DNA from: Lasiodiplodia sp. COLG20
Lineage: Eukaryota > Ascomycota > Dothideomycetes > Botryosphaeriales > Botryosphaeriaceae
Length of the DNA: 64,000 bases
Direction: 5' to 3'
NCBI GenBank assembly: GCA_009801085.1
Contig: VNWV01000045.1
Location: 23,571-87,570, forward strand
Each line of letters opens with the position of its first letter. Within the stretch, counting starts at the first letter, position 1. Positions 12,096 to 28,053 of the stretch are shown piece after piece. A model generated the notes under the pieces. It worked only from the letters and a program-made list of their open reading frames with translations. It had not been told where the DNA came from and ran no database searches. The translations under genes and the position numbers were made by a program.

Positions 12096-13502
12096 CTACG
12101 AATAAAAGAGAACATTTCCTTCAAACAACCTCCGTGCCGTCCTGAGAACAACAGCCGACACGATCTCCGTGCCTTGAACACCGCAACTTTGTTCGATTTC
12201 GACGGCGAGAAGGCCACGTGCGTGCCCAATTCGAACGGTTTTCTTCTCCGCCTTGGGCTTGTTGCGACCCTGACCAGGTGACGGCGTCCTTTCAGGAGTG
12301 GGCAGTGTGGCGGCAGACATGATTCGGTTGGGCACAGTGCCGCTGGTAACTGCCGCAGCGCCTAGGCAGACTGCTCCAGTCAGTTGGAGACTTGGGTGCA
12401 GTTTTCCCATGCTGAATGCAGCAACGTGTAGGTCGGCCGTTGTGGAATCATCCCGGGAATCCCACAATGGCACTGCTGAGACGATGGCGACCTTCGGTGT
12501 ACCTTGAGTCACTGCTGCAGCCTTTGTGTCGGTAGATAGACCCATCATTACTGCACCCACCCTTCGAATGTTCTCGATGACGCGCAGGAATTCCAGAGAA
12601 TGCGGATCCTGTGACATGAACTTCCGGGGCAATGTTGAGGCGTCGATGAAAATAAATGGGTTAGCGGCGTCCACCAAGCTTGCTGTTACGGAAAGGTCTT
12701 GGCCTTCAAGGTGAATGACGTCCGTTGAGTTGCCGGTAGGAAGAAGAGATCCGGTCATGCTTCCAGAGGGCTCCAGAAATGCGACACGCACCATGCTCCC
12801 TGTACCCTTAACACCGTCAATTCTGAAATCGCCATCCTCTTTGTATTGTCCAAGTTCGTCAACGTCCACAGTGGCCACCAAAAGACGGGAAGTATTTGTG
12901 TTGAGAATCCGGATATCGACCTGCTGAGATATCAATATCGTAAAAGCTTTAATAAAGGCCACAATGCTTACAGTATCCTTCCCTTGCTCTACTCTTACCA
13001 TACCCTCGTCGAGAGCAAATGGTCCGACCCCGGCTGCCATGTTTCCGCAATTTCCGCTAAAGTCAACAGTTGTTTTTCCAACCCCCACCTGTCCAAAAGT
13101 ATACTCGACGTCGATTCCTGGCACAGTCGATTTTGCAACCACAGCCACCTTTGATGTTGTGGACGTAGCACCTCCTACGCCATCAATCTGCCTTGGGTCA
13201 CCGGCTGCTGAGCCCATCGCCGCAAGCAACGGTACGGTCCAATCTTCCATGCGAGATGGTAGATGTTCGCGCCGAACGAAAAGACCTTTCGAGGTTCCTG
13301 CCCTCATTAGAACGGCCGGAAGCCGCTGACGCCTTCGCTGTCTGTGCATCATAGCTGGTGCTGTATCCATGCTATGTTGAAGCAGGGTCTGCATAGAGCG
13401 CTGATGGAGTGCTGGTAATAGGATTTGCTTCAGGGAAATCGGGATAGAACGAGTAATAAAGCTGCTTGACCGCGATGGTAAAACACTGCTCCGCACAAAC
13501 AT
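12096..13502 (-). CDS. PrpF-family isomerase (aconitate / methylaconitate / oxalomesaconate type)
   Basis: One exon. I chose ATG 13502, giving 468 residues, because the first ~40 residues are then Arg/Ser-rich with no acidic residue, like a mitochondrial presequence; an upstream in-frame ATG at 13538 is possible. The body starts LPAVLMRAGTSKGLF and carries SGNCGNMAAGVGPFA, the PrpF signature with its conserved Cys, and ends with RIGHARG and RTARRLFEG. PrpF proteins shift double bonds in tricarboxylate-like substrates: 2-methylaconitate isomerase, 4-oxalomesaconate tautomerase, and the aconitate delta-isomerase of Ustilago itaconate synthesis. The neighbouring mitochondrial carrier, MFS transporter and regulator favour a tricarboxylate or aromatic-acid pathway. 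Two palindromic CCGCGG sites lie just upstream. Confidence 0.9.
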   Translation of the reverse strand: MFVRSSVLPSRSSSFITRSIPISLKQILLPALHQRSMQTLLQHSMDTAPAMMHRQRRRQRLPAVLMRAGTSKGLFVRREHLPSRMEDWTVPLLAAMGSAAGDPRQIDGVGGATSTTSKVAVVAKSTVPGIDVEYTFGQVGVGKTTVDFSGNCGNMAAGVGPFALDEGMVRVEQGKDTVSIVAFIKAFTILISQQVDIRILNTNTSRLLVATVDVDELGQYKEDGDFRIDGVKGTGSMVRVAFLEPSGSMTGSLLPTGNSTDVIHLEGQDLSVTASLVDAANPFIFIDASTLPRKFMSQDPHSLEFLRVIENIRRVGAVMMGLSTDTKAAAVTQGTPKVAIVSAVPLWDSRDDSTTADLHVAAFSMGKLHPSLQLTGAVCLGAAAVTSGTVPNRIMSAATLPTPERTPSPGQGRNKPKAEKKTVRIGHARGLLAVEIEQSCGVQGTEIVSAVVLRTARRLFEGNVLFYS

Positions 13503-13593
13503 GCTTACGAGTTGGAAACCAATGTATTTAACGGGCATATTTAAAGTACAAAGACCCACCTTCGCCAGAGTGTTTCTCTCTGTCGTAGTAGCA

Positions 13594-13642
13594 TCCCGCG
13601 GGAAAGACGGGAGCACTTCTGCACTTGGGCTCTCCCGCGGGA
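13594..13642. promoter_or_regulatory. two TCCCGCGGGA palindromes upstream of the PrpF gene
   Basis: Exact 10-bp palindromes TCCCGCGGGA occur at 13594-13603 and 13633-13642, 39 bp apart, about 90-140 bp upstream of the chosen ATG. Their CCG/CGG half-sites fit Zn2Cys6 binding, and the next gene encodes such a regulator. The core CCGCGG recurs in the promoters at 16355-16375 and 17799-17824. Binding is inferred. Confidence 0.5.
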
Positions 13643-13880
13643 AGCTATATTGTGGGGTAACTCGGCACGAAAATATTGTTTCTCGTGGCAACGTTGGCCC
13701 CATCAAAGAGACGGAAAGAATGACGAGATGACTACCGGAGACAATAAATATTATTTCAGGACTCCAATAGCGCAGAAAACATTTTGGGTAAAAAGAATAC
13801 TTTCGAGAAGGTCGTTGTGATTGCTCAGGTTGCAGCTATTCTTTATTTTGACATGGGATTGTCTCGTGTCAGATCTAGTT

Positions 13881-16262
13881 TTATTCTGGGAAAAAGAAGT
13901 TGTCCAGCGCGGAGCCGTTGAATCCAAAAAGCATGTCGTCTGTGGGGAAGTCATCCCGTCTGTGCTGCTGAACAATCTGAGCATCGAGACCAGCAGTGTT
14001 GCCAGAAGACACAATGTCCAAGAAATATGAAGGATCATTCAACAATTCCCCAGAAACGCCGGATGCTCTTTGGCCGGGAACAAAAGTCTCGAGTATTGCG
14101 TCAATGTCCAAAGCAAGAGAATGATCTGCAAGCGAATTCCTGTTCTCTTCCGGCTGTCCTGGTGGCCCATTGGCAGTGTCTGTATCAACGCGGATTTCAT
14201 CCCCAGTGTCAACGTCAGGGTGTGATTGCTGTGGAAGCACAACTCCAAGCCGTCTCATCAAATTCCTTATGACCAAATTTGCTCTTCGAACTGCCCAGTT
14301 TGTCTCTTGATTTTCCTCAAAAACGGCCAGGCACGTTCCAAGACTTGCATGTGCTTCAGATCCCGGCCCTTGCTTTGCCGCGATGCGAACGTGTATGGTA
14401 GCGCTGACGTACGTAGCGTACGATATCAGGTAAGGTGCCCTACGAATTGAGAACACCTTATCGTACGCCTGCAGAATCCTGACGAGTTGGGTGGCAGCAG
14501 TCGCACACTCCAAGAATGATGATCTGGCAAATGAGCGACTGTGCAAATGCCCACCTACAACGAACGGGCGATGTAGTAATATACGAAGGACATTGTACAT
14601 GGCCCTGCAGACGGTTGTTAACATCTGCGAATGAAGCCTGAGGAGCATGCTTACATCAAGGACAGCACGTGCGGGGGTGGCGTTTGCTCGGATTCGTTCA
14701 AAGGATCAAAATTCAGATGTGGCGGAAGGTCATGTTCCCAGCTTTGCAGGCGTTGTTGGAGACTCTCGAGCATTGTCGATAGTTCTGATGGATTCCTATC
14801 AAAGCTTCGTTCTGCATAGATGCAATTGAGAATATCGCTCATTATGATGGAAAGTTTGCACAGGGCGGCAAATGTGGAGACACTGTGTGCCGGATGGCCA
14901 GGGTAAGAGCACGAATTGTCCGGTGAGTACGCAAAAGGGAACCACTGCTCGAGCTCCTCGTAGGTATCAAGAAATAGGATCGGAACGCGGGTATCTGCTT
15001 CTTGCAGAGTCACTGGGCGGCCTTGATACAGACTTTGGATTCTGTCCACGACTAATGGCAGGCATCAGCGACGAAAAATGTCACACGTGCACGAACACAT
15101 ACCAAAAGCCCCCCAGAAAACACGGCGGCGGATTTCAAGATCCTCATCGGAGAATTTCCCTGGTTGGTCTGGAGAGTACACATGGATTCCGAGGTCGACT
15201 ATCATGCGGAAGGCAATTCCCGAGTACAACCAAGCGGCGCTCCTCTCATCACCAAGGGCAAAAAGCGAGTTTGTCATGACCAAAAGAGCCTGAATGGTTG
15301 TGACTTTACTGCAGTTGAGAGCAGGGCCAAGGAGCTCCTTCACTCGTTCCTTGAACCGCCAGCCAGAAGTCCTGACGTCCGTCGGGTCGCTGCGGACCTC
15401 AAGTCGAGGGCTGAATTTGGAGGCACCGAAGTAGATGGCATTGAGAAGGATTTTCGAGAAGTACGGCCCATTGCATGCCATGTCACGCATGAATGCAGGC
15501 CGGTACGTCAGAAGAAAAGAGTGGTGCTGTCTGTTCCAATGCAAGTGGAGCAGATGCTGCCCAAGGTCAGGGTCTACGCCATCGAAATCCAGCTTCCCGC
15601 GGGTGAAGTTGATGGCTTCCATTTGACCTACAGCGGCATTAGCGATGCTTTCTTCGCACCTGGGTGGAGTTCCCACGCTGCTTGGCAGCCTCGGCAACCA
15701 GGCCCGCCTCCACCCAAGCTCTTGGCCGGCGGGGGCTTCGCTCAGGTCGGTCGCCTTCTTGGGCGGTCTCGTCAAACAATGCGCTGGTGCGGCCATGGTA
15801 TGTTGAAATGCCGTTCGGCGACGACACGAGCCGGGAAAGAGAACCGGACGCAGGGGTACTATCAGACGGGAGCGAATGCCGCGTCTCGGTTAGACCCTCT
15901 GATTGCCGTGGCAGCGGACTGCGTGTTTGATCGGCAACGTGTGGCGAAGGTTGCTTCCCGCGGGAGCGCTTGCTGGGCCGCGGATGTTGGCTGTGGGTCA
16001 GTGCTTTCGGAACTTGTGAAGCTTTTCCGCAGTGTCTCCTCACCTTGCAGGTGCGCCTATGGGCTCATACACGCAGTCCCGATTGTACGTCTGGCAATTG
16101 ATGCACGCTGGACGAGTCGCGTTGCATTTGATCTGTACTCGTCGTTGGCTTTGGGCCGTTGAAACGGAAAGAGGACCGAACCTTTCGGGCACGGCAGAAC
16201 GAACACGCCTCAGACACGCGCGTTCTGCCTGAGCCTCCCCGGCGTCGATGCTGTGTTGCCAT
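13881..16262 (-). CDS. Zn2Cys6 transcription factor with fungal-specific TF domain
   Basis: Six exons (16262-16182, 16132-16044, 15990-15677, 15627-15103, 15051-14655, 14604-13881) with five 49-53-nt introns keep one frame and give 709 residues. The zinc cluster has Cys 20, 23, 30, 37, 40 and 47 in perfect C-X2-C-X6-C-X6-C-X2-C-X6-C spacing, with RARKIKC spanning the first splice. It is followed by TYHGRTSALFDE and a middle-homology domain (KLDFDGVDPDLG, HWNRQHHSFLLTYRP, RRVFWGAFVVDRIQSLYQG, ILLHRPFV). This resembles NirA/XlnR-type proteins, but I would not name an orthologue. It is a nuclear activator or repressor, divergently transcribed from the mitochondrial carrier, and probably controls the 12-22 kb cluster through CCGCGG sites. 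Confidence 0.93.
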
Positions 16263-16440
16263 GGCACGAGGGTTGCGGGTGAGCGGGAGGGGAAGGTGGA
16301 GAAGGTGAAGAAAAAGACGGGCCGCGAGCTTTGAGAACGGGAAGGCCGGACGGGCCGCGGAAGCTGACCCCGCGGCTGCGCCTCATGACTAATATATCAC
16401 CGTGGACATTATCCGCTCTGGCTGAGCTGCCAAGCACACC
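16263..16440. promoter_or_regulatory. bidirectional promoter with two CCGCGG palindromes
   Basis: Only 178 bp separate the regulator start (16262, minus) from the carrier start (16441, plus). CCGCGG occurs at 16355-16360 and 16370-16375. Autoregulation by the adjacent Zn2Cys6 protein is a reasonable inference. Confidence 0.5.
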
Positions 16441-17497
16441 ATGTCCGCCCAAGTTCAAACCAACCCTGTTGCTGCCCCGGAAAAGGCCCTTTCTGCAAAA
16501 AATGTGCCCTCTATCTCACCTTTGACTTCTTTAGTTGCGGGAGGAATCGCTGGCAGTGTTGAAGCTGCGCTAACTGTAAGTGGTCCTTGAAAATCTGGAG
16601 ATTGTCCTCTCATCCGTAGTCCTCAAGTATCCGTTCGAATTTGCGAAAACGCGGGCACAACTGAGCAGCTCAACGTCCTCCCGCAACCCCTTTGCGGTCC
16701 TCATTCAGACTGCGCGCAATGATGGCGTATCTGCGATATACACTGGCTGCACAGCTCTAATTCTCGTAAGTCAATTCCATTCGTTAACTTCCGAACCTAC
16801 TTTTTTTCTCACTCCATCAGGGGACAGCATTGAAGGCAGGCGTCCGTTTCCTGTCTTACGATTCAATCAAGCGCATCCTTGCCGACGAGAGTGGCAGGCT
16901 CAGCCCCTCGCGTGGCCTTTTTGCCGGCATGTTCGCTGGTTGTGTCGAGAGTGTAATAGCAGTGACGCCAACTGAGCGGATCAAAACGGCGCTGTAAGTG
17001 CATGCCTTTTGACGGATTGAACCTTCTTTTACTTACTATACTTCAGCATCGATGACCAGCGAGGAGCAAGACGTTTCCAAAGTGCTCTGCATGGTGCCAG
17101 GACCTTTGTGGCTGAGCGTGGTTTCCGCGAGCTATATCGTGGGCTGGTCCCCACCACCGTGAAGCAGTCGGCAACCTCCGCAGTACGCATGGGCTCATAC
17201 AACATTATCAAGGAGAAAATCGGACGTTATGAGCCACTCAATCAGACTATTGCTTCGTTCACGGCTGGAGCTCTAGCTGGCACCATCACCGTATACGCGA
17301 CGCAGCCATTTGACACAGTCAAAACACGCTCACAGAGTACAGGAGGGGCCACTATCTCTGATGCACTCCGAGGAATCTATCTGTCAAGCGGTGTGCGCGG
17401 CTTTTGGAGTGGAAGTACGATGCGTTTGGGAAGACTCATGCTCAGTGGTGGAATTGTCTTCGCTGTATATGAGAAGGTCGTAAGCCTTTTATCATAG
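16441..17497 (+). CDS. mitochondrial tricarboxylate (citrate)-type carrier
   Basis: Four exons (16441-16575, 16628-16765, 16821-16993, 17047-17497) give 298 residues, the usual size of a mitochondrial carrier. The first intron would end in AAG, a less common acceptor, but it is required to restore YPFEFAK. The three repeats each carry the PX[DE]XX[KR] signature: YPFEFAKTR, TPTERIKTALIDD and QPFDTVKTR. The second and third are typical of the citrate/tricarboxylate (CTP1/Mtt) branch. It should exchange citrate, cis-aconitate or related acids across the inner mitochondrial membrane. Next to a PrpF isomerase and an MFS transporter it recalls the mitochondrial-carrier genes of itaconate clusters (MttA, Mtt1). 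Confidence 0.9.
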
Positions 17498-18045
17498 ACT
17501 GCAGTTTCACGTCATCCGACCGGTCTATGTTTAATATGAATACAACTGAAATGATCATTGCAAATTGCCAAAGTCTATCCTGGAGAAAATGTGCTATGCC
17601 GTACGTTTGAATGGAAAATTTCCCCATGGAAGTTTCGGATGCCCGCAACTCGGATAAATGTCTATCATCAACTGTGGCCCGTCTTGTTAAACGCGTCGTC
17701 ATAGTGCTCTGGAAGTGCATGAGGCAACTAGTATCTGTGGTGTTGAGCGTGAAGTTCCCCAGAATCATTGCGACTGGACTGCTACGCCGCATGCTCATCC
17801 GCGGGAAAGCCTGGACACCCGCGGGAAGGATTTCCTCCACAATCCCAACCCGTTACCAAGACGAGCCACTTAGTTCGACATTTACCGACCCCGCGTTCCC
17901 AGATTCTTGCCCCGCATCGGCTTCTTGTCCAAGTTCTGGAATATTTATAGGGTCACCTGGATATAATTTTCTACACTTTTTGAGGTATGCTTGCACGGTC
18001 AATTCATCTCTGCAACGCGTAGCCATTTTCTCACGCACTCTCAAC
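17498..18045. promoter_or_regulatory. intergenic region with two CCGCGG sites upstream of the MFS gene
   Basis: TCCGCGGGA at 17798-17806 and CCCGCGGGAA at 17818-17827 lie about 220-250 bp before the MFS start. This repeats the paired arrangement seen before the PrpF and regulator/carrier genes. An open frame from about 17611 across the region shows no family features. Confidence 0.5.
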
Positions 18046-19772
18046 ATGACCGACAAGGCCGATCCACCTTCCGGAGAGATGGACGAGAAGAGTATTCAGG
18101 TGCTTCATCAAGAGACCAAGCCAAACGACCTTACGCTCGCCGAGAAGATTCAGGCCCGATACGAAACTTTACGAGGATTGTCGAAATCGGAGATGGACGC
18201 ACTGAATCGTCAAGTGCGGAGGAAGCTTGATTGGAGACTCATGCCATGCATCACTCTAATGTTTCTCATGAAGTAAGTACTTCGGCGAACTACGTCTTGT
18301 ACACGGCAGATTGCTTACAACATTCAGTTATCTGGATCGCATAAATGTGTCCAACGCCCGCCTCGCAGGGCTGCAAGAAGATCTGCACATGTCAGACACT
18401 GTTTGGAACACGGGTATATCGACATTCTATGTTGGCTACCTCGTTGGGCAATTGCCCGGTAACTTGTGGCTAGCAAAGTCCAATCCAGGCAAGGTGCTTC
18501 CGACAATGGCGCTTGCCTGGAGTGTTGCTACCATATGTATGCCAGCAGTCACAAGGTAAGCTGCCTGCCACCACATTTGGGCCCAGAACAACAGCCAACT
18601 AAATCTGTTCATAGCGGTGCTGGATTTGCTTTATGTCGGTTCGCGACGGGGCTTGCTGAAGCTCCATTCTTTCCAGGAATTACACTGAGTAAGACGGCTG
18701 TCTCCTTGCTTTGTAGCTACCTTTGCATAAATGCTGATTCCTCTAGTGACGTCTTCATGGTACAACAAAGAAGAGAATCCAACTCGAATGGCCATATGGC
18801 ATGCCGGAAATACCATCTCGAACATCATCTCCGGCTTCCTCGCTGCTGGTATTTTGATGAACATGGAGAACACTCTTGGTCTTCACTCATGGCAGTGGAT
18901 GTTCATCATTGAAGGCGGTGCCTCAATCTTGGTCGCTCTGTCTGGATTCTTGCTCTTGCCTGACTGGCCGCACAACACAAAGTGGCTGAGCGAACAGGAG
19001 AAGGAGATGGCTCAGTACAGAATGCGGTTGTCAAATGGTGACCAGGATGAATCCCAGGGTGGAACTTGGGCTGGAGTCAAAGATGCTGTCAGAGACCCAT
19101 TCACGTGGTACTTTTGCGGCATGCATTTTGCTCTGATAACGGCACAGAGCTTTAAGGATTTTCTCCCTTCTGTAAGACTCTCAGGCATGACTCGTCTACG
19201 CATTAGTACTGACTGTGAATCAGATCATTGAAACGTTCGGATTCGACACTCTCAAGACATACTTGGTGCAAGCACCGCCTTATGCCATTGCATATGGAGT
19301 TGCGTGTCTACTTGCCTGGACATCTGGCCGCATGCAAGAGTCTTGCTGGCACATTGTGGTTCCTATCGGCCTCAGTGCTGTCGGGACTGCGGTTCTGATC
19401 TCATCCCTCAATGTCGGCGCTCGGTACTTTGGCATCATTTTGCTTATCAGCGGAACTTACTCGGGACTCAACCTCCAGCTATCCTGGGAAACGACACTTG
19501 TGCCCGCACCGAGGAGCAAGAAGGCAGCTCTCATCGCGATTGCGAACTGCATTAGCCAGACCAGCCATTGGTTCAGCCCTTACTTCTTCCCAACTTCACA
19601 GGAGCCGTACTACCGCCTTGGCGGTGGGTTGATTTTGTTCGGCTGCTTGGCCACTGCAGTACTCTCATTCTTGATTAAGCTACGTGCCAAGAAACTCAAC
19701 AGATTACTCGACGAGGCTGAAGGATGGTCAGAGCATTCCGAGGGCGAGCGTGGCTGGAGATTCAGTTACTAG
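18046..19772 (+). CDS. MFS transporter, anion:cation symporter (Dal5/allantoate permease-like)
   Basis: Five exons (18046-18272, 18328-18555, 18615-18688, 18747-19171, 19224-19772) with phases 2, 2, 1 and 0 match and give 500 residues. The hydrophilic N-terminus ends in RRKLDWRLMPC, then NYLDRINVSNARLAGL, SSWYNKEEN, LPDWPHNTKWLSEQEK and YSGLNLQLSW follow, all standard for the ACS family (Dal5, Tna1, Vht1 type). It is a plasma-membrane carrier for an organic anion. Within this cluster it could import or export a carboxylic acid; ACS members are mostly importers. The substrate cannot be read from sequence. Confidence 0.92.
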
Positions 19773-20672: not shown

Positions 20673-22172
20673 ATGCCTAGCCTCGAGCAAATGGAAAAGG
20701 CGCAAGTCATCATCGTTGGTGGCGGAATATCCGGTCTGAGCCTGGCGCTGATGCTCGAACAACTTGGAATCTCGTACTTGTTGCTGGAGGCGTACTCCAG
20801 CCTTACGAAGCCTGTCGGCGCCCTCATCGCCCTCAACCCCAATGGTCTCCGAATTCTGGATCAGCTTGGCGTCCTCCCGGACATCAATGCCATCGCCACG
20901 CCCTTGCTACGCCACGTGGTGATTGACGGTGAGTCAGGAAAGCGCATCACCGACTTGTCCTTTCCTGGGTATATGCGCGCGCGCCACGGTTACGAAACGG
21001 CATTTCAAGCTCGACATGAGGTAGTCGTTGCACTGAAGCGAAACATCAAGTCCAAGGAGAGACTGCGTACAGGCAAGAGGGTGGTCACAGTCAACCAAGA
21101 CGAAAAGGGCGCAACGGTGTACTGCGAAGACGGGTCGAGATATGGAGCGCAGATGGTGGTTGGGGCGGATGGAGTGCACAGTGTTGTGCGTCGCGAGGTG
21201 TTGAAGATGGTCAAGGAAAAGGACGCAAACTTTGAAGGCGCCGACAGTACGCTCGCCATTTCTACAATATAGTTTCACGGTGCTGATCCAATTTGTTTTA
21301 CAGTTGTCCGCTGCGAGTATGGCACCGTGTTTGCCATCGCTAACCCCTCTGAGCACCTCCAGCCGGGCGATGGCTATTCCTTCCAGCGGAATCGCTGTAA
21401 TGGTGGTGTTGTCTGCGGCCGTGACGGCTGTAACTATCTCTTTTACCACTTCCGTCGTCCTGGCCCTTACGATGTCCCCGTTGAGGAGTTACCTCGCATG
21501 TCTGCGGCTGAGGTGGAAGAGCGCTGGGCTGAGATGCTGCCACGGCGCGTCAGCGAAAGCGCCGATTTCACCTTTGCCGACCTGCTGTCTGCTGGCACCA
21601 CTTCCAAGGGTGGGTCGGTTCTGCCGCACTTCACTCTTCCCAAGTGGTACGATGGCAGGATCATGGCCATGGGCGATGCTGTTCACAAGCTCAACCCCAT
21701 GACGGCGCAGGGCGGCAATAATTGCATCGAGACCGCCGCAGCGATTGCGAACCACCTCCACGACACACTTGCACGGCATAATATTCCCTTGCTGCAGCCC
21801 CAGTGGCCACCAAAAGTTGTCGAGGAGATATTTGCTGCCGTAGAGCAGGAACGGATGCCCCGCGTTACCGGCCTCGTTCAAGAGTCCCAGGAGCTCCAGT
21901 ACACATTCTCTTGGGATACGTGGTGGTATAAGATTGTGGCCAAGTACTTGTTCCCCCGCATGAACAAATCGAAGATCGCCGACGCTTCTTCCAGCAGCAT
22001 TGTTGGTGCTGTCACATTGAAGGGAGACAGGTGGGAGGTCCCGCATCCCAGAGACCACATCGTGCCGTGGGATGACGAGGCGTTTGGGAAAGGATCTATT
22101 AGTTTTTTCCAAGCAGTAGCGGCGATCATTGCAATCACATGTGCGGTAGTATGGGGCAAGAGGAATCATTAA
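20673..22172 (+). CDS. FAD-dependent monooxygenase (PaxM / salicylate-hydroxylase-like)
   Basis: Two exons, 20673-21246 and 21304-22172, join in phase 1 to give 480 residues. ATG 20673 is the first real ATG of the frame. The dinucleotide-binding motif VIIVGGGISGLSLALM lies at residues 12-27, a GADGVHSVVRR motif in the middle, and MGDAVHKLNPMTAQGG is the second FAD-contact motif of group A flavin monooxygenases. A hydrophobic C-terminal helix (near FFQAVAAIIAITCAVVWG) suggests a membrane anchor, as in PaxM-type enzymes of fungal terpenoid pathways. It would hydroxylate or epoxidise a hydrophobic or aromatic substrate with NAD(P)H and O2. Membership in the PrpF/carrier cluster is by proximity only. 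Confidence 0.9.
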
Positions 22173-23261: not shown

Positions 23262-24676
23262 CTATTTGGGTTTGCTACTACTTTTGCTTCTTAACAAGTA
23301 CGCTGAAGCTGTAAGAATAAAAGAACCAAGAAGCATCACAACTCCTCCGAAGATTTGTGCGTAGAGATAACTACCGTGTCCCACAGCTATTAGACGAGCC
23401 GCAATGGGTGGGCCAGCCAAACACGGAATACTAGAAACCGTAAAGATGAGCCCCACCCTACTTCCCGCTTTACTCAAATCTTGCAGAGCAAACAATCCAG
23501 CGGAAGCTGGAAATTGGCTTTGAACAGCATTTGCAAAGAAACCGTAAAACGCAGCCCAAATCATCAACCCGGCTCGTGAGCTGACGCCGATCCAGCACAG
23601 GAGCATGATACCAGAAAGAGCGACGAGAGGTATGAATACAAGCAGAGGGCCGAAGTAACGATCGGCAAGGATCGCGGGCGCCACACGTCCAATGACCCCA
23701 ATGCCGTTCATTACAAGCAGCAGAACCAATGACTCTCGTTGCGTGTAATCGAAGTACTGTCTTGAGTAGGTATTAATCTGTTGTGGTGAATACTGTGGTC
23801 ATGACGAACGGATGCGGATGAGACTTACAAAGAAGTAGGCAAAGTATAGGCCCCAAAGCTCGATGAAACAACCGATAGTAAAGAGCGTGAATGGAACCTC
23901 CTTGAAAGCGCGAATTTCAATGAGCGCCCCCAGCTTTCGAGGTGGGATCCGAGTCCGTGTGACTAGCACGATATAGATGCTGTTGATTAGCATTACCAAT
24001 GCCATGACTCTGACTGTCCACGGGAAGCCTATCGACTGTAAGCATGAATAGGCGATGGCTGGGAAGATCATCCCGCCCGTAGCTGCTCCGCAGGCGGCCA
24101 AGGAGACGGCCATCACCCGTCGCCGACTGAAATAGGTTGAGAGTAGCGATATGACTGGCGAGAACAGGATTCCGTGGCCCAGCCCGCTACACAGGCCTTG
24201 TGCAAGGAAGATCTGCCAAAAGTGGGTGGCGAATGAAGTCAACGTGGCTCCGAGGACCTGCAGAGAACATCCTAGAACCAGGATGGCTTTGAAATAGCCG
24301 GCATCGAGGGCGCGTCCAGACACGGCTCCAATCAAGAAAACAAGGAACATTTGGAAAGAGCCAATCCATGAAGTTTGCTCAGAGTGGATTCCGAGCTCGT
24401 CAACGTAGTAACGCTGGAAAAAGCCGAACCTGCGAGACCCAGTGGCTTAGTACGTCTTGGCTGTATCACTTCAACTGACACTTAATCTTACGAGGAAATG
24501 TAGCCCCAGCAGTTCAGGACAACCAAATGCGCAGCAATCACCTGTGACCATGCTTGCAGTCCGCCATCTGGAACCTGGGCTGTGTCAGAAGTCTGGGCGG
24601 GAACACCTTCTGACGGTGACCTTGTGGCCGAGGCTTTCTCTGCGTCTGTTTCATGAAGAGGGGAATTTGTTTCCAT
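23262..24676 (-). CDS. MFS transporter, monocarboxylate-porter (MCT)-like
   Basis: Exons 24676-24492, 24429-23829 and 23777-23262 (introns of 62 and 51 nt, both canonical) give 433 residues. The hydrophilic N-terminus leads into VPDGGLQAWSQVIAAHLVV, the PDGG[xxW] hallmark of fungal MCT-type porters, followed by SFGFFQRYYVDELG and about twelve hydrophobic segments. ATG 24676 is chosen because an upstream start in frame is only a GTG. Its promoter (24677-25393) is shared with the first isocyanide synthase, divergently. In fungal metabolite loci this family often exports the product; that role is inferred. Confidence 0.9.
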
Positions 24677-25393
24677 GTTCAACAGCACATGAAAGACTTG
24701 CGCAAAAGCCGAAGTCGACCGGGCTTGCGGTCAACGTGTAAAGACTTTAGGAAAGAAGCTAGGCCTGGGTTGATGTGTAGGCATGCGCGGTACTTGTTTC
24801 TCGTAAGCGACAACTTATTCAACATCCCTGCAACCACAATACGGGACATAAATCACACCATCGCTATCTCAGCATTTCTTATCGATTTTTTCGTATAGAT
24901 TAGCGTACATCCTGTGGCGACCTTCTTAAACTGTCTATTGTTCCCGGTCTCCCGCGAAGATCCCCTGCTATACCGGCGTAACGCATCGGGGAACCGGCTA
25001 ATATAACAATGACATGATAGGTCGGTAGAGGAAAAAGTCGAGCGAACACGTTGCGGCCAACCTTTTAAGTGGGCCATCGGTTCGGCGGAAGAATGCCGAC
25101 GAACGCCGTGGGGAAGGGTGCTTTACGCTGCTTTACCGCAGCTGCTCTAGCATATACGTGGGTTCGCGTGACGGAGCTCTCCGATTACACTCTCGTTTTA
25201 CTATCATTGCCAAGGGATAACCTCCCATTATGACGCATCGGGATTTCTGAATGAATCGACGGTTCGGAGATGTTCCTGGACTGGTTCTTCGCTCAAACGA
25301 CCCTGTTGCTTTCCACACTGTGGGCGTGGTAAAGATATAAAGAAACACGAAAGGGAATCGGGAATCGTTCGAAGTTCATACCCAGACAATCTC
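24677..25393. promoter_or_regulatory. 717-bp divergent promoter between MFS and isocyanide synthase A
   Basis: Both flanking genes start outward from this region. AAGATATAAAG at about 25332-25342 is a TATA-like site some 50 nt before the ATG at 25394. No repeated motif was picked out with confidence. Confidence 0.4.
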
Positions 25394-26693
25394 ATGGACT
25401 TTTCCGGGACTCAAAGAAGCCGGTCCGACAGCGGCTATCATCCTTCCCTCTCCGATACCACCCGTCGTGTCCTTGAGATACTCGAAAGTTATGGAATGCA
25501 CGAGAAAAGCCATTCGATGCCGGAGCAGCACGGCTGGCTGGGGAGAGCGACATTCGGTCCCATCATCGAAACGCATGTCTCAGCAGGAAGGATAATCCCA
25601 ATGGTGCTGCCCTCATTTCCCTGGAAAAGCATCAACAGAGTGGACAAGGTCCTCGGGACGGAGCCAGACCTTGGGGAAGAGCTGGCTCTGGCAAGGATCA
25701 ACGATCTCTGTCGATGTGTACAGCAAGTCCATGCTCCTGGGGCATTCGTCGTTATCGCCACTGACGGCCTTTGTTACAATGGTATGCATCTGATCCGATC
25801 ATTCTGCCAGAGCAACACTTAACATTGCAGATATTCTCGGTATACCTGACGAAGATGCCTGGAACTACGGATCCGCAATTCGGGCACTTGCAAGAGAGCG
25901 TGGATATTCATGCATCAAGTTCTCTCGATTGATGAATCTGGTCGGACTTTACAGCGAGCCGGACATATCAAAGGAGAAGTACTTGGAGCTCTGCGAGCCA
26001 GCTCGAAGACAGCTCGCCTCGACCTATGGCGACCCCAGTTTTGACGCCGACGCGTTTCTGAAGACGGACGAGGATTACATGCGCACCTACCTGGGCTACT
26101 CTAAGTTTTTGACCAAAGACCTGGCGTACAGTCCAGTCGTAGCCTCTCTTCCAAGCCGCAAGAAATTCAAAGCACTTGTAAAGGTTATTGGAAAGGAAAT
26201 GATTGCCGGCGGTGTTGTGAGTCCAATTGATGTTTTATTGAACCCAAGGGAATTGCTAATTAATATTCAGGCATATGCAAAATTAATTCGCAAAGTTTAT
26301 CCTGACTATGTCCGCCTCTCGATACACCCTTCTTCTGGCGCAACCAAGCTCTCAGTCCCTTTGATTCCGCAAACAAAGGGGTTTTCAATGTCTCCATGGA
26401 ACTGTGCGATTGCCATTTCTACGTGTGGTGCATTCAAGACTGCTCACGTGTCGGACTTGCGAGACTCGCATGATTTGGTTTTTAAACACGGACGACCCTA
26501 TTGCTTCAGGGAGAGGTCGCCACTATTTGACTGGGATGCGAATGTCGAGATGGACCATCATTATGGTGGGGTCCTCATAATCAGGAACCCCGATGGTGCG
26601 AAAAATGCCAAGTGGGAGCTCGGCGACCAGGATCGGAAACGGCTAGTGGCTCTAACACTGCTGCATAACCGGGTGGAACTGGAAGGGTTTTGA
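25394..26693 (+). CDS. isocyanide synthase A (DIT1/PvcA family)
   Basis: Exons 25394-25781, 25831-26216 and 26271-26693 give 398 residues. The family core [19 protein letters not shown] followed by [17 protein letters not shown] is unmistakable for DIT1/PvcA (Pfam PF05141-type) proteins, and the later [18 protein letters not shown] and PWNCAIAI blocks also fit. Family knowledge: bacterial PvcA/IsnA and fungal XanB/CrmA-type enzymes turn an amino acid into an isonitrile, while yeast Dit1 makes formyl-tyrosine. The second intron (54 nt, GTGAGT...TTCAG) is a multiple of three and stop-free, so its retention would add 18 residues in frame; the paralogue has an intron at the same site, which supports splicing. 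Tandem with a second, diverged copy. The substrate is unknown. Confidence 0.9.
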
Positions 26694-26786
26694 TGCAGGG
26701 CATGCCAGTGGATATATATAATCTTCCAATAGACAGCAATTTGTGAATATTTTCAGTTTCCCCCGCTCCAGCTTTTTACACCCGCG

Positions 26787-28053
26787 ATGACATTTGAAGA
26801 GCCCGCCCGAGACATTGTTCCAGACGTTATTGACATCCTGCGGCGTTTCTCTCACCATGTAACTGATGATCCATCTCGTGAACCCGAAGTCTTTGGTAGC
26901 ACCACCCGAGAGAAACTTCGATCCTTCATTTCCCAGGCGAAGCCAATCATCTTAGTCCTCCCGGCATTTCCCTGGAAGAATAGGAACCTGGACAAGGTCA
27001 TCGGCCGCCACCCAGATCTCGGCGAGGAACTCGGCCTGGCGCGCCTCAACCACGTCTGTGAAGAAATCCGGAAGGTTTACGTACACGGCGCATTACTGCA
27101 CCTGATTGCGGATGGCCCTGTGTACAATGGTAAGCCTGCACGAAGAGACGCCCTTGAATGTTACTCTCTGCTAAGAAACGTATATCTAAAAGATCTTCTC
27201 GGAATTCCGGACGCGGAATATTACGAATACGGGCTGCAACTTCGAGCTCTTGCGGGCAAAAAGGGCTTTGGGAGTATCAAATTTCTGCGGCTGCCGGACT
27301 TGTTCCAAGATGGAAACAGCGACGAAATCTCCAGAGAGGACTACCTGTCCTCTGTTCCCTCGTGGCGCGCCCGCTTGGAAGCAGATTTCCTTCGTGCCGA
27401 CTTCGACGTCGACCGGGAAGTACTGAAGAACGAAGATACGCGCCTTACATACCAGGGATATGTCCGGTTGGCAGAGGAAGATCTGAAATGGGGCGTCCAG
27501 TTTGATGGGAAGAATGTGGAGCACACAGAGGCATACACCGCGGCTGCTCAAGACGTAGCCAAGGGCATGATCCGACGATTGATCGTACGTAGCAATCCCA
27601 TGTTTGCAGCAGAAATATACTTACATCACTCAGGCATACGAAGCTTTGATTAGTAGGAAGTATGAAACGGCAATACGACTGTCCATTCACCCGTCAACAG
27701 GGAAGAATAAGGTTTCCATTCCACTGCTTCCATGGGACGGAAAATCAAGAGGAACTCCATGGCATTCCAGTGTCGCTCTTTTGGCAGATGGCAAAGTTTG
27801 CACAGGCCTCTCTAAAGAGTTTCGGGAGGTGTACGACTTGGTAATACAGGACGGGGTGCCGTATTACTTTCGGGAGAAGAGTGCTCTTTTTAAACTTGAC
27901 GCTGACATTGATATCGGATATGAGTATGAGGGGCTAGTGCTGGCAGCAAGTTCTATAGCAACTCCTCAACTGACCGAGAGTGATAAAGAGAAACTGGCAG
28001 AGCTCATCATCCGGTTTCGAAAAGTGAGGACATTGGGGTTCAATTCAGCATAG
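26787..28053 (+). CDS. isocyanide synthase B (DIT1/PvcA family), tandem paralogue
   Basis: Exons 26787-27129, 27193-27584 and 27634-28053 give 384 residues. The core ILVLPAFPWKNRNLDKVIG and HPDLGEELGLARLNHVC parallels gene A, and both introns sit at homologous places in the same phases (after the conserved YN, and before AYxxLI). It starts only 93 bp after the stop of gene A, in the same direction. The two proteins have diverged strongly, for example around residues 140-240, so they probably act on different substrates or on successive amino acids rather than being recent duplicates. This is a putative cytosolic isonitrile-forming enzyme. No fused NRPS or dioxygenase domain is present. Confidence 0.9.

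Follow-up and report, generated by a model that had tools for sequence, protein, structure and literature searches.

An old pair of single-domain isocyanide synthases in Lasiodiplodia, one probably canonical and the other probably altered in catalysis

Isocyanides are metal-binding, potent bioactive groups, and to our knowledge there is no explanation of why some fungi keep two of the synthases for them side by side. Here, we describe such a pair of isocyanide synthase (ICS) genes, ICS1 and ICS2, in a 64-kb window (the whole stretch of DNA analyzed) on contig C40 of the 43.5-Mb, 88-contig genome of Lasiodiplodia sp. COLG20. Enzymes of this family condense the nitrogen of tyrosine or tryptophan with a carbon of ribulose-5-phosphate (PMC7949033). 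Single-domain enzymes make up 31% of the ICSs of fungi (Nickles et al., 2023; PMC10153163). The closest described system is gene cluster family (GCF) 1 of the same survey, which has two single-domain ICS backbones in two clades, a suggested ancestral duplication and a discontinuous taxonomic distribution; a small clade from species without GCF 1 lies between the two (Nickles et al., 2023). A second described case is the icsA/icsB cluster of Aspergillus fumigatus, with two ICS genes and without canonical synthases such as nonribosomal peptide synthetases (NRPSs) or polyketide synthases (PKSs) (Lim et al., 2018; PMC5974471).

ICS1 (25394–26693, + strand) and ICS2 (26787–28053, +) are complete spliced models predicted from the DNA sequence, each with three exons, and encode proteins of 398 and 384 amino acids. 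An earlier note on this DNA had proposed two adjacent, strongly diverged DIT1/PvcA-family genes, head-to-tail and 93 bp apart, and coordinates, orientation and spacing (93 bp from stop to start) are all upheld. The profile hidden Markov model check suggested there places both genes far above the curated PF05141 (DIT1_PvcA) cut-off of 26.4 bits in Pfam, with 278 bits for ICS1 (E 1.2e-82, profile positions 1–270 of 273) and 271.1 bits for ICS2 (E 1.4e-80, positions 2–267 of 273). Over 382 aligned positions the two proteins share 34% identity (E 8e-75), which agrees with the strong divergence claimed. On balance, we favor the view that they form an ancient single-domain ICS pair in which ICS2 is canonical and ICS1 has been retained but is catalytically altered.

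As far as the published descriptions go, the arrangement is a familiar one. Like GCF 1, the locus has two single-domain ICSs in one cluster, from two clades that go back to one duplication; the difference, with GCF 1 compared by description only, is that ICS1 lacks two near-universal residues. The claim that the pair differs from described fungal loci is not supported, since GCF 1 already has two single-domain ICSs and the single-domain type accounts for 31% of fungal ICSs. The likeness to icsA/icsB, again by description only, lies in two ICS genes in one cluster without an NRPS or PKS, whereas in Aspergillus the ICS of IcsB is fused to a dioxygenase and the two genes are non-adjacent by locus number (AFUA_4G01370 and AFUA_4G01420). 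The double synthase is thus of a kind already known, and the altered ICS1 is a variant not met in our literature searches: those searches (isocyanide synthase pair, Botryosphaeriaceae, pseudoenzyme, Lasiodiplodia), judged mostly on titles and the openings of abstracts and with subscription papers mostly uncovered, returned nothing on this pair or on an altered ICS.

Homolog searches returned 188 matches for ICS1 and 173 for ICS2; the best 120 of each gave 219 distinct ICS proteins, which were aligned with four proteins of the same genome (223 rows). At position 256, ICS1 has Gly where 218 of the 221 other rows have Arg. At position 302, the TPWH His, kept in 211 of the 217 other rows with a residue at that site, is replaced by Asn. 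Among the listed rows, Gly at the first site occurs elsewhere only in the Neofusicoccum (P0001) and Macrophomina (P0002) orthologs of ICS1 and in that of a close relative (P0003). The same three have Asn at the second site, as does P0150; the remaining substitutions there are Asp (P0058) and Phe (P0122, a model that runs into an intron). The family of the closest named proteins we take to be Botryosphaeriaceae, and the altered ICS1 is common to three lineages of it. ICS2 keeps both residues (Arg243 and His289).

Deviations were also counted in full-coverage rows at 27 near-invariant columns, defined without the Botryosphaeriaceae pair. ICS1 deviates at four (L102I, Y113H, R256G and H302N), P0001 and P0002 at three each and ICS2 at none, so that ICS2 groups with the canonical synthases by conserved residues and ICS1 does not. 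The other 83 full-coverage rows show no deviation in 72 cases, one in 10 and two in one, but this count is biased towards rows that help to define the columns. When near kin were held out for each row, three or four deviations were seen in 8 of the other 84 rows with full coverage, and the idea of ICS1 as an outlier by deviation count was dropped. As the count is not decisive, emphasis was placed on which residues changed: in the alignment, the unusual feature of ICS1 is the joint change of two residues, Arg and His, otherwise conserved from bacteria to fungi. The bacterial enzymes PvcA and PIsnA (PDB: 3e59, 9dh4 and 9dhm) share the fold over approximately 300 residues at 24–27% identity (Foldseek). 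PvcA differs in that its residues at chain positions 236 and 282 (by alignment) are Arg and His where ICS1 has Gly and Asn; the Lasiodiplodia proteins also score far below the PvcA equivalog cut-off. Predicted models of two homologs from outside the window, P0001 and P0134, match the PvcA-like folds 3e59 and 9dh4, and the model of the ortholog P0001 indicates that the ICS1 fold is kept.

The trees support an old duplication. In a tree of 91 rows (87 listed homologs and the four proteins of this genome), ICS1 falls in a clade of 22 rows (support 95/92) and ICS2 in one of 20 (100/100), and the two clades are sisters (91/92). A second tree, of 77 rows, omitted 14 rows (long-branch, outgroup and own-genome); in it the pair lies on one side of a branch with 100/100 support. 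Each clade includes what we take, from the species names given by the sources, to be Eurotiomycetes, Sordariomycetes and Botryosphaeriaceae; because the sister clades span several fungal groups, the duplication is taken to be old, and ICS1 and ICS2 seem to have traveled together. Among the matches listed, ICS1 is 80% identical to the Macrophomina protein and 77% to the Neofusicoccum protein, and ICS2 is 93% identical to a Lasiodiplodia theobromae protein over 65% of its length. The window genes group with Penicillium/Talaromyces proteins (99/86 for ICS1 and 85/83 for ICS2), and within the clade of ICS1 the Sordariomycetes are instead joined by the Pleosporales (Bipolaris, Alternaria and Boeremia). 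Either horizontal transfer or hidden paralogy could have placed the Botryosphaeriaceae genes with Penicillium/Talaromyces and not with Pleosporales. Two long-branch proteins, P0034 (Neofusicoccum, ICS1 clade) and P0150 (Macrophomina, ICS2 clade), suggest a second, older gene type.

Linkage in other fungi was assessed by a proxy, namely proteins from contigs of identical length (the longest contig per protein cluster). The comparison covered 35 ICS1-type and 30 ICS2-type proteins (21 and 19 of them, respectively, placed in the tree and the remainder assigned by similarity), 65 other listed ICSs and the first 16 of 120 listed homologs of a monooxygenase encoded upstream of the pair. Seven ICS1-type/ICS2-type pairs share equal-length contigs, and no protein of either type has an equal-length match among the 65 other ICSs. 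Two of the pairs have neighboring locus numbers: g5974/g5975 of Fusarium decemcellulare, on a contig of 20 kb, and 010673/010676 of Penicillium brevicompactum. The remaining five, on contigs of 0.25–6.6 Mb, may or may not be adjacent. A further 28 ICS1-type and 23 ICS2-type proteins have no equal-length partner, so pairing may not be general.

A PF05141 profile search of the genome found two further loci, C78 and C3. The C78 locus (2098000–2107999) has an ICS gene (578 amino acids as modeled) with a divergent cytochrome P450 (P450) gene beside it, identified with Pfam; its ICS may be called Dit1-like by gene arrangement, which is a separate matter from comparison with the Dit1 sequence, and the locus has the look of a dit-type cluster. 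The C3 locus (609391–619390), near a contig end, encodes an ICS-TauD fusion (637 amino acids as modeled) and an adjoining P450. Dit1 and the ICS-TauD enzymes of the XanB type belong to the same Pfam family as ICS1 and ICS2, and the genome has a look-alike of each in C78 and C3. Judged by arrangement and not against the Dit1, XanB or CrmA sequences, these types differ from the pair: the C78 and C3 genes adjoin P450s and C3 is fused to TauD, whereas for ICS1 and ICS2 no P450 was seen among the 92 of 354 contig C40 candidates scored, and TauD, which marks the XanB type when fused or adjacent, was found neither in the two proteins nor among the 24 of 24 candidates scored. The two diverged proteins show no deviation at the 27 columns; with near kin held out, C78 has four and C3 none, and none is at the Arg or His site.

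The C3 protein also bears on the introns. ICS1 (introns of 49 and 54 nt) and ICS2 (63 and 49 nt) each have a phase 1 intron followed by a phase 0 intron at homologous positions, as had been reported in the earlier note, which also inferred an old tandem duplication. As a mark of such a duplication the shared introns are weak: both recur at the ICS1/ICS2 sites (SDGxxYS^D and KQMIARGK^CYA) in the C3 gene model, and ICS1 is 32% identical to the C3 protein, compared with 34% to ICS2. The introns thus belong to a wider fungal branch, and alone they neither show nor date a tandem duplication; they were rejected as proof of it, and the old age of the duplication stands on the sister clades instead.

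These data suggest that ICS2 is probably a canonical synthase and ICS1 probably a retained copy with altered catalysis. ICS2 carries the residues conserved for the family condensation and would form an isocyanide by condensing an amino acid, through its amino group, with ribulose-5-phosphate, and the divergently transcribed major facilitator superfamily (MFS) transporter may export the product. Because Arg256 is replaced by Gly and His302 by Asn, ICS1 most likely reacts otherwise on a conserved fold: it could be slower, use another substrate or no longer be a synthase. Tentatively, we can go a step further and propose that ICS1 lost the family Arg and His after the ancient duplication, is no longer a usual ICS, and was retained either to assist ICS2 in a regulatory or structural capacity or to catalyze another reaction with an unchanged fold; the first of these roles, a partner for ICS2, is possible. 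A naturally altered copy beside a canonical one amounts to a direct experiment on the purpose of the second synthase, and ICS1 also probes which residues isocyanide chemistry needs.

Several observations weigh against an altered ICS1 beside a canonical ICS2. ICS1 is not unique in its number of changes, the Arg and His are candidates for lining the active site, and a change of substrate without loss of activity would look identical. The identity of the pair with GCF 1 fits the published description, on which it rests, and the small clade described between the two GCF 1 clades is not seen in the present tree sample. Furthermore, the best 120 of the 173 ICS2 matches include no close ortholog of ICS2 from either Neofusicoccum or Macrophomina, and the Macrophomina match in the ICS2 clade, among those listed, is the divergent P0150 only (46%), on another contig from the Macrophomina ICS1. 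ICS1 may therefore act without ICS2 in these fungi; unless an ICS2 gene there lacks annotation, this argues against the two being an obligate pair. As a side observation, the database models of the ICS2 orthologs P0121 and P0122 end early near intron 2 (263 and 284 amino acids), which makes ICS2 easy to overlook or misannotate in relatives.

It is conceivable, if unlikely, that both enzymes are active ICSs, with different amino acid substrates or with one scaffold on which they produce a di-isocyanide. ICS1 retains the remaining invariant polar residues tabulated in the 223-row alignment, and in other fungi the Arg and His are intact in 19 of the 21 ICS1-clade rows. A difference in substrates would also suit the mark of the ICS2 type, in which Asn replaces the Ser that follows an invariant Lys. 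This replacement occurs in 24 rows, all of them ICS2-type: 22 are among P0121–P0150 (29 rows with a residue, seven of which keep Ser), and the other two, P0153 and P0155, are outside the tree with ICS2 as their best match. However, two active synthases make a less simple explanation because ICS1 is without two near-universal residues, and there is no TauD neighbor, nor any P450 in partial searches, to join or tailor two isocyanides.

It is improbable that ICS1 has fallen out of use and, under relaxed selection, is decaying into a pseudogene. Two near-universal residues are changed in three lineages, and the window gene has the further change Tyr113 to His, absent from P0001 and P0002, as decay might produce. 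Against this, the reading frame, splice sites and length of ICS1 are intact, its identity to P0001 and P0002 remains at 77% and 80%, and its stem branch (0.32) does not exceed in length the one leading to the ICS2 group (0.47). The two changes are common across genera and hence old, which is ill-suited to simple decay. Least probable of all is a larger pathway in which the flavin adenine dinucleotide (FAD)-dependent monooxygenase encoded upstream tailors the isocyanide and to which a transcription factor and two MFS transporters, likewise upstream, also belong: the genes adjoin on one contig and the two best monooxygenase matches are both from Lasiodiplodia (93% in L. theobromae and 84%), but the next match listed, from outside that genus, is at 46%, none of the 16 best homologs is on a contig equal in length to that of an ICS1- or ICS2-type protein, the contig of P0232 (Colletotrichum tofieldiae), equal in length (5,468,471) to that of P0044, an ICS outside both types, is too long to show linkage, and the genes farther upstream (PrpF and a mitochondrial carrier) look metabolic.

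The spliced models are as follows, all on the + strand. ICS1 exon 1 (25394–25781) starts with the ATG at 25394 and is followed by intron 1 (25782–25830; 49 nt, GT..AG, phase 1), exon 2 (25831–26216), which contains Gly256, intron 2 (26217–26270; phase 0) and exon 3 (26271–26693), which contains Asn302 (SPWN for TPWH) and ends with the stop codon. Because intron 2 (54 nt) keeps the frame and contains no stop codon, gene finders can read straight through it; the intron is supported by the Neofusicoccum protein model P0001, which has no insertion at this point. ICS2 comprises exon 1 (26787–27129), intron 1 (27130–27192; 63 nt, phase 1), exon 2 (27193–27584) with Arg243, intron 2 (27585–27633; 49 nt, phase 0) and exon 3 (27634–28053), with the TPWH His289 and the stop codon. 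A read-through fusion of the two genes was ruled out by the intervening stop codon and spacer. The 93-bp spacer (26694–26786) has a TATATA at 26713 and a CCAAT at 26726, by simple pattern match only, and may hold a promoter for ICS2 itself.

Upstream, a 717-bp intergenic region (24677–25393) with a TATAAA at 25336 separates ICS1 from the divergent MFS transporter gene (approximately 23262–24676, − strand; partial model, ATG taken at 24676). An MFS gene occurs in approximately 60% of fungal ICS clusters (Nickles et al., 2023), and this one is a possible cluster member. The FAD-dependent monooxygenase (20673–22172, +) is a protein of 480 amino acids with a hydrophobic stretch near its C terminus, and its best match is named paxM by the source. 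The contig comparison of its 16 best homologs does not support it as a conserved ICS partner, and it is possibly a lineage-specific neighbor.

The earlier note's statement that no NRPS or 2-oxoglutarate dioxygenase partner is visible holds as far as tested. On contig C40, no TauD domain was found in 24 of 24 candidates scored, no DJ-1/PfpI in 4 of 4, no P450 in 92 of 354 and no AMP-binding domain in 14 of 118. None of the four was found in the 33 of 129 window open reading frames given to Pfam, and there is no TauD domain within ICS1 or ICS2 themselves. Scanning the window and 10 kb upstream for P450 and AMP-binding motifs gave no match, but this result was not used, as the strict P450 motif missed the P450 of C3. 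A relaxed P450 motif finds the C3 gene and has one window match, at 13880 (+), which was taken as chance because it lies opposite the open reading frame run 13881–14705 (−). The motif TKTGCTCA, which we take to be the MacA/Mac1 copper-response motif, has five matches against 5.6 expected and none in the MFS-ICS1 or ICS1-ICS2 gaps, and was rejected as evidence. A doubled TTAGGG telomere repeat was not found in the window. Downstream of the pair are a HET-domain gene, a zinc-binding dehydrogenase and an epimerase-like gene. Farther upstream, at 12096–19772, a PrpF-like gene, a fungal transcription factor, a mitochondrial carrier and an MFS transporter stand in a row and are perhaps an organic-acid gene set.
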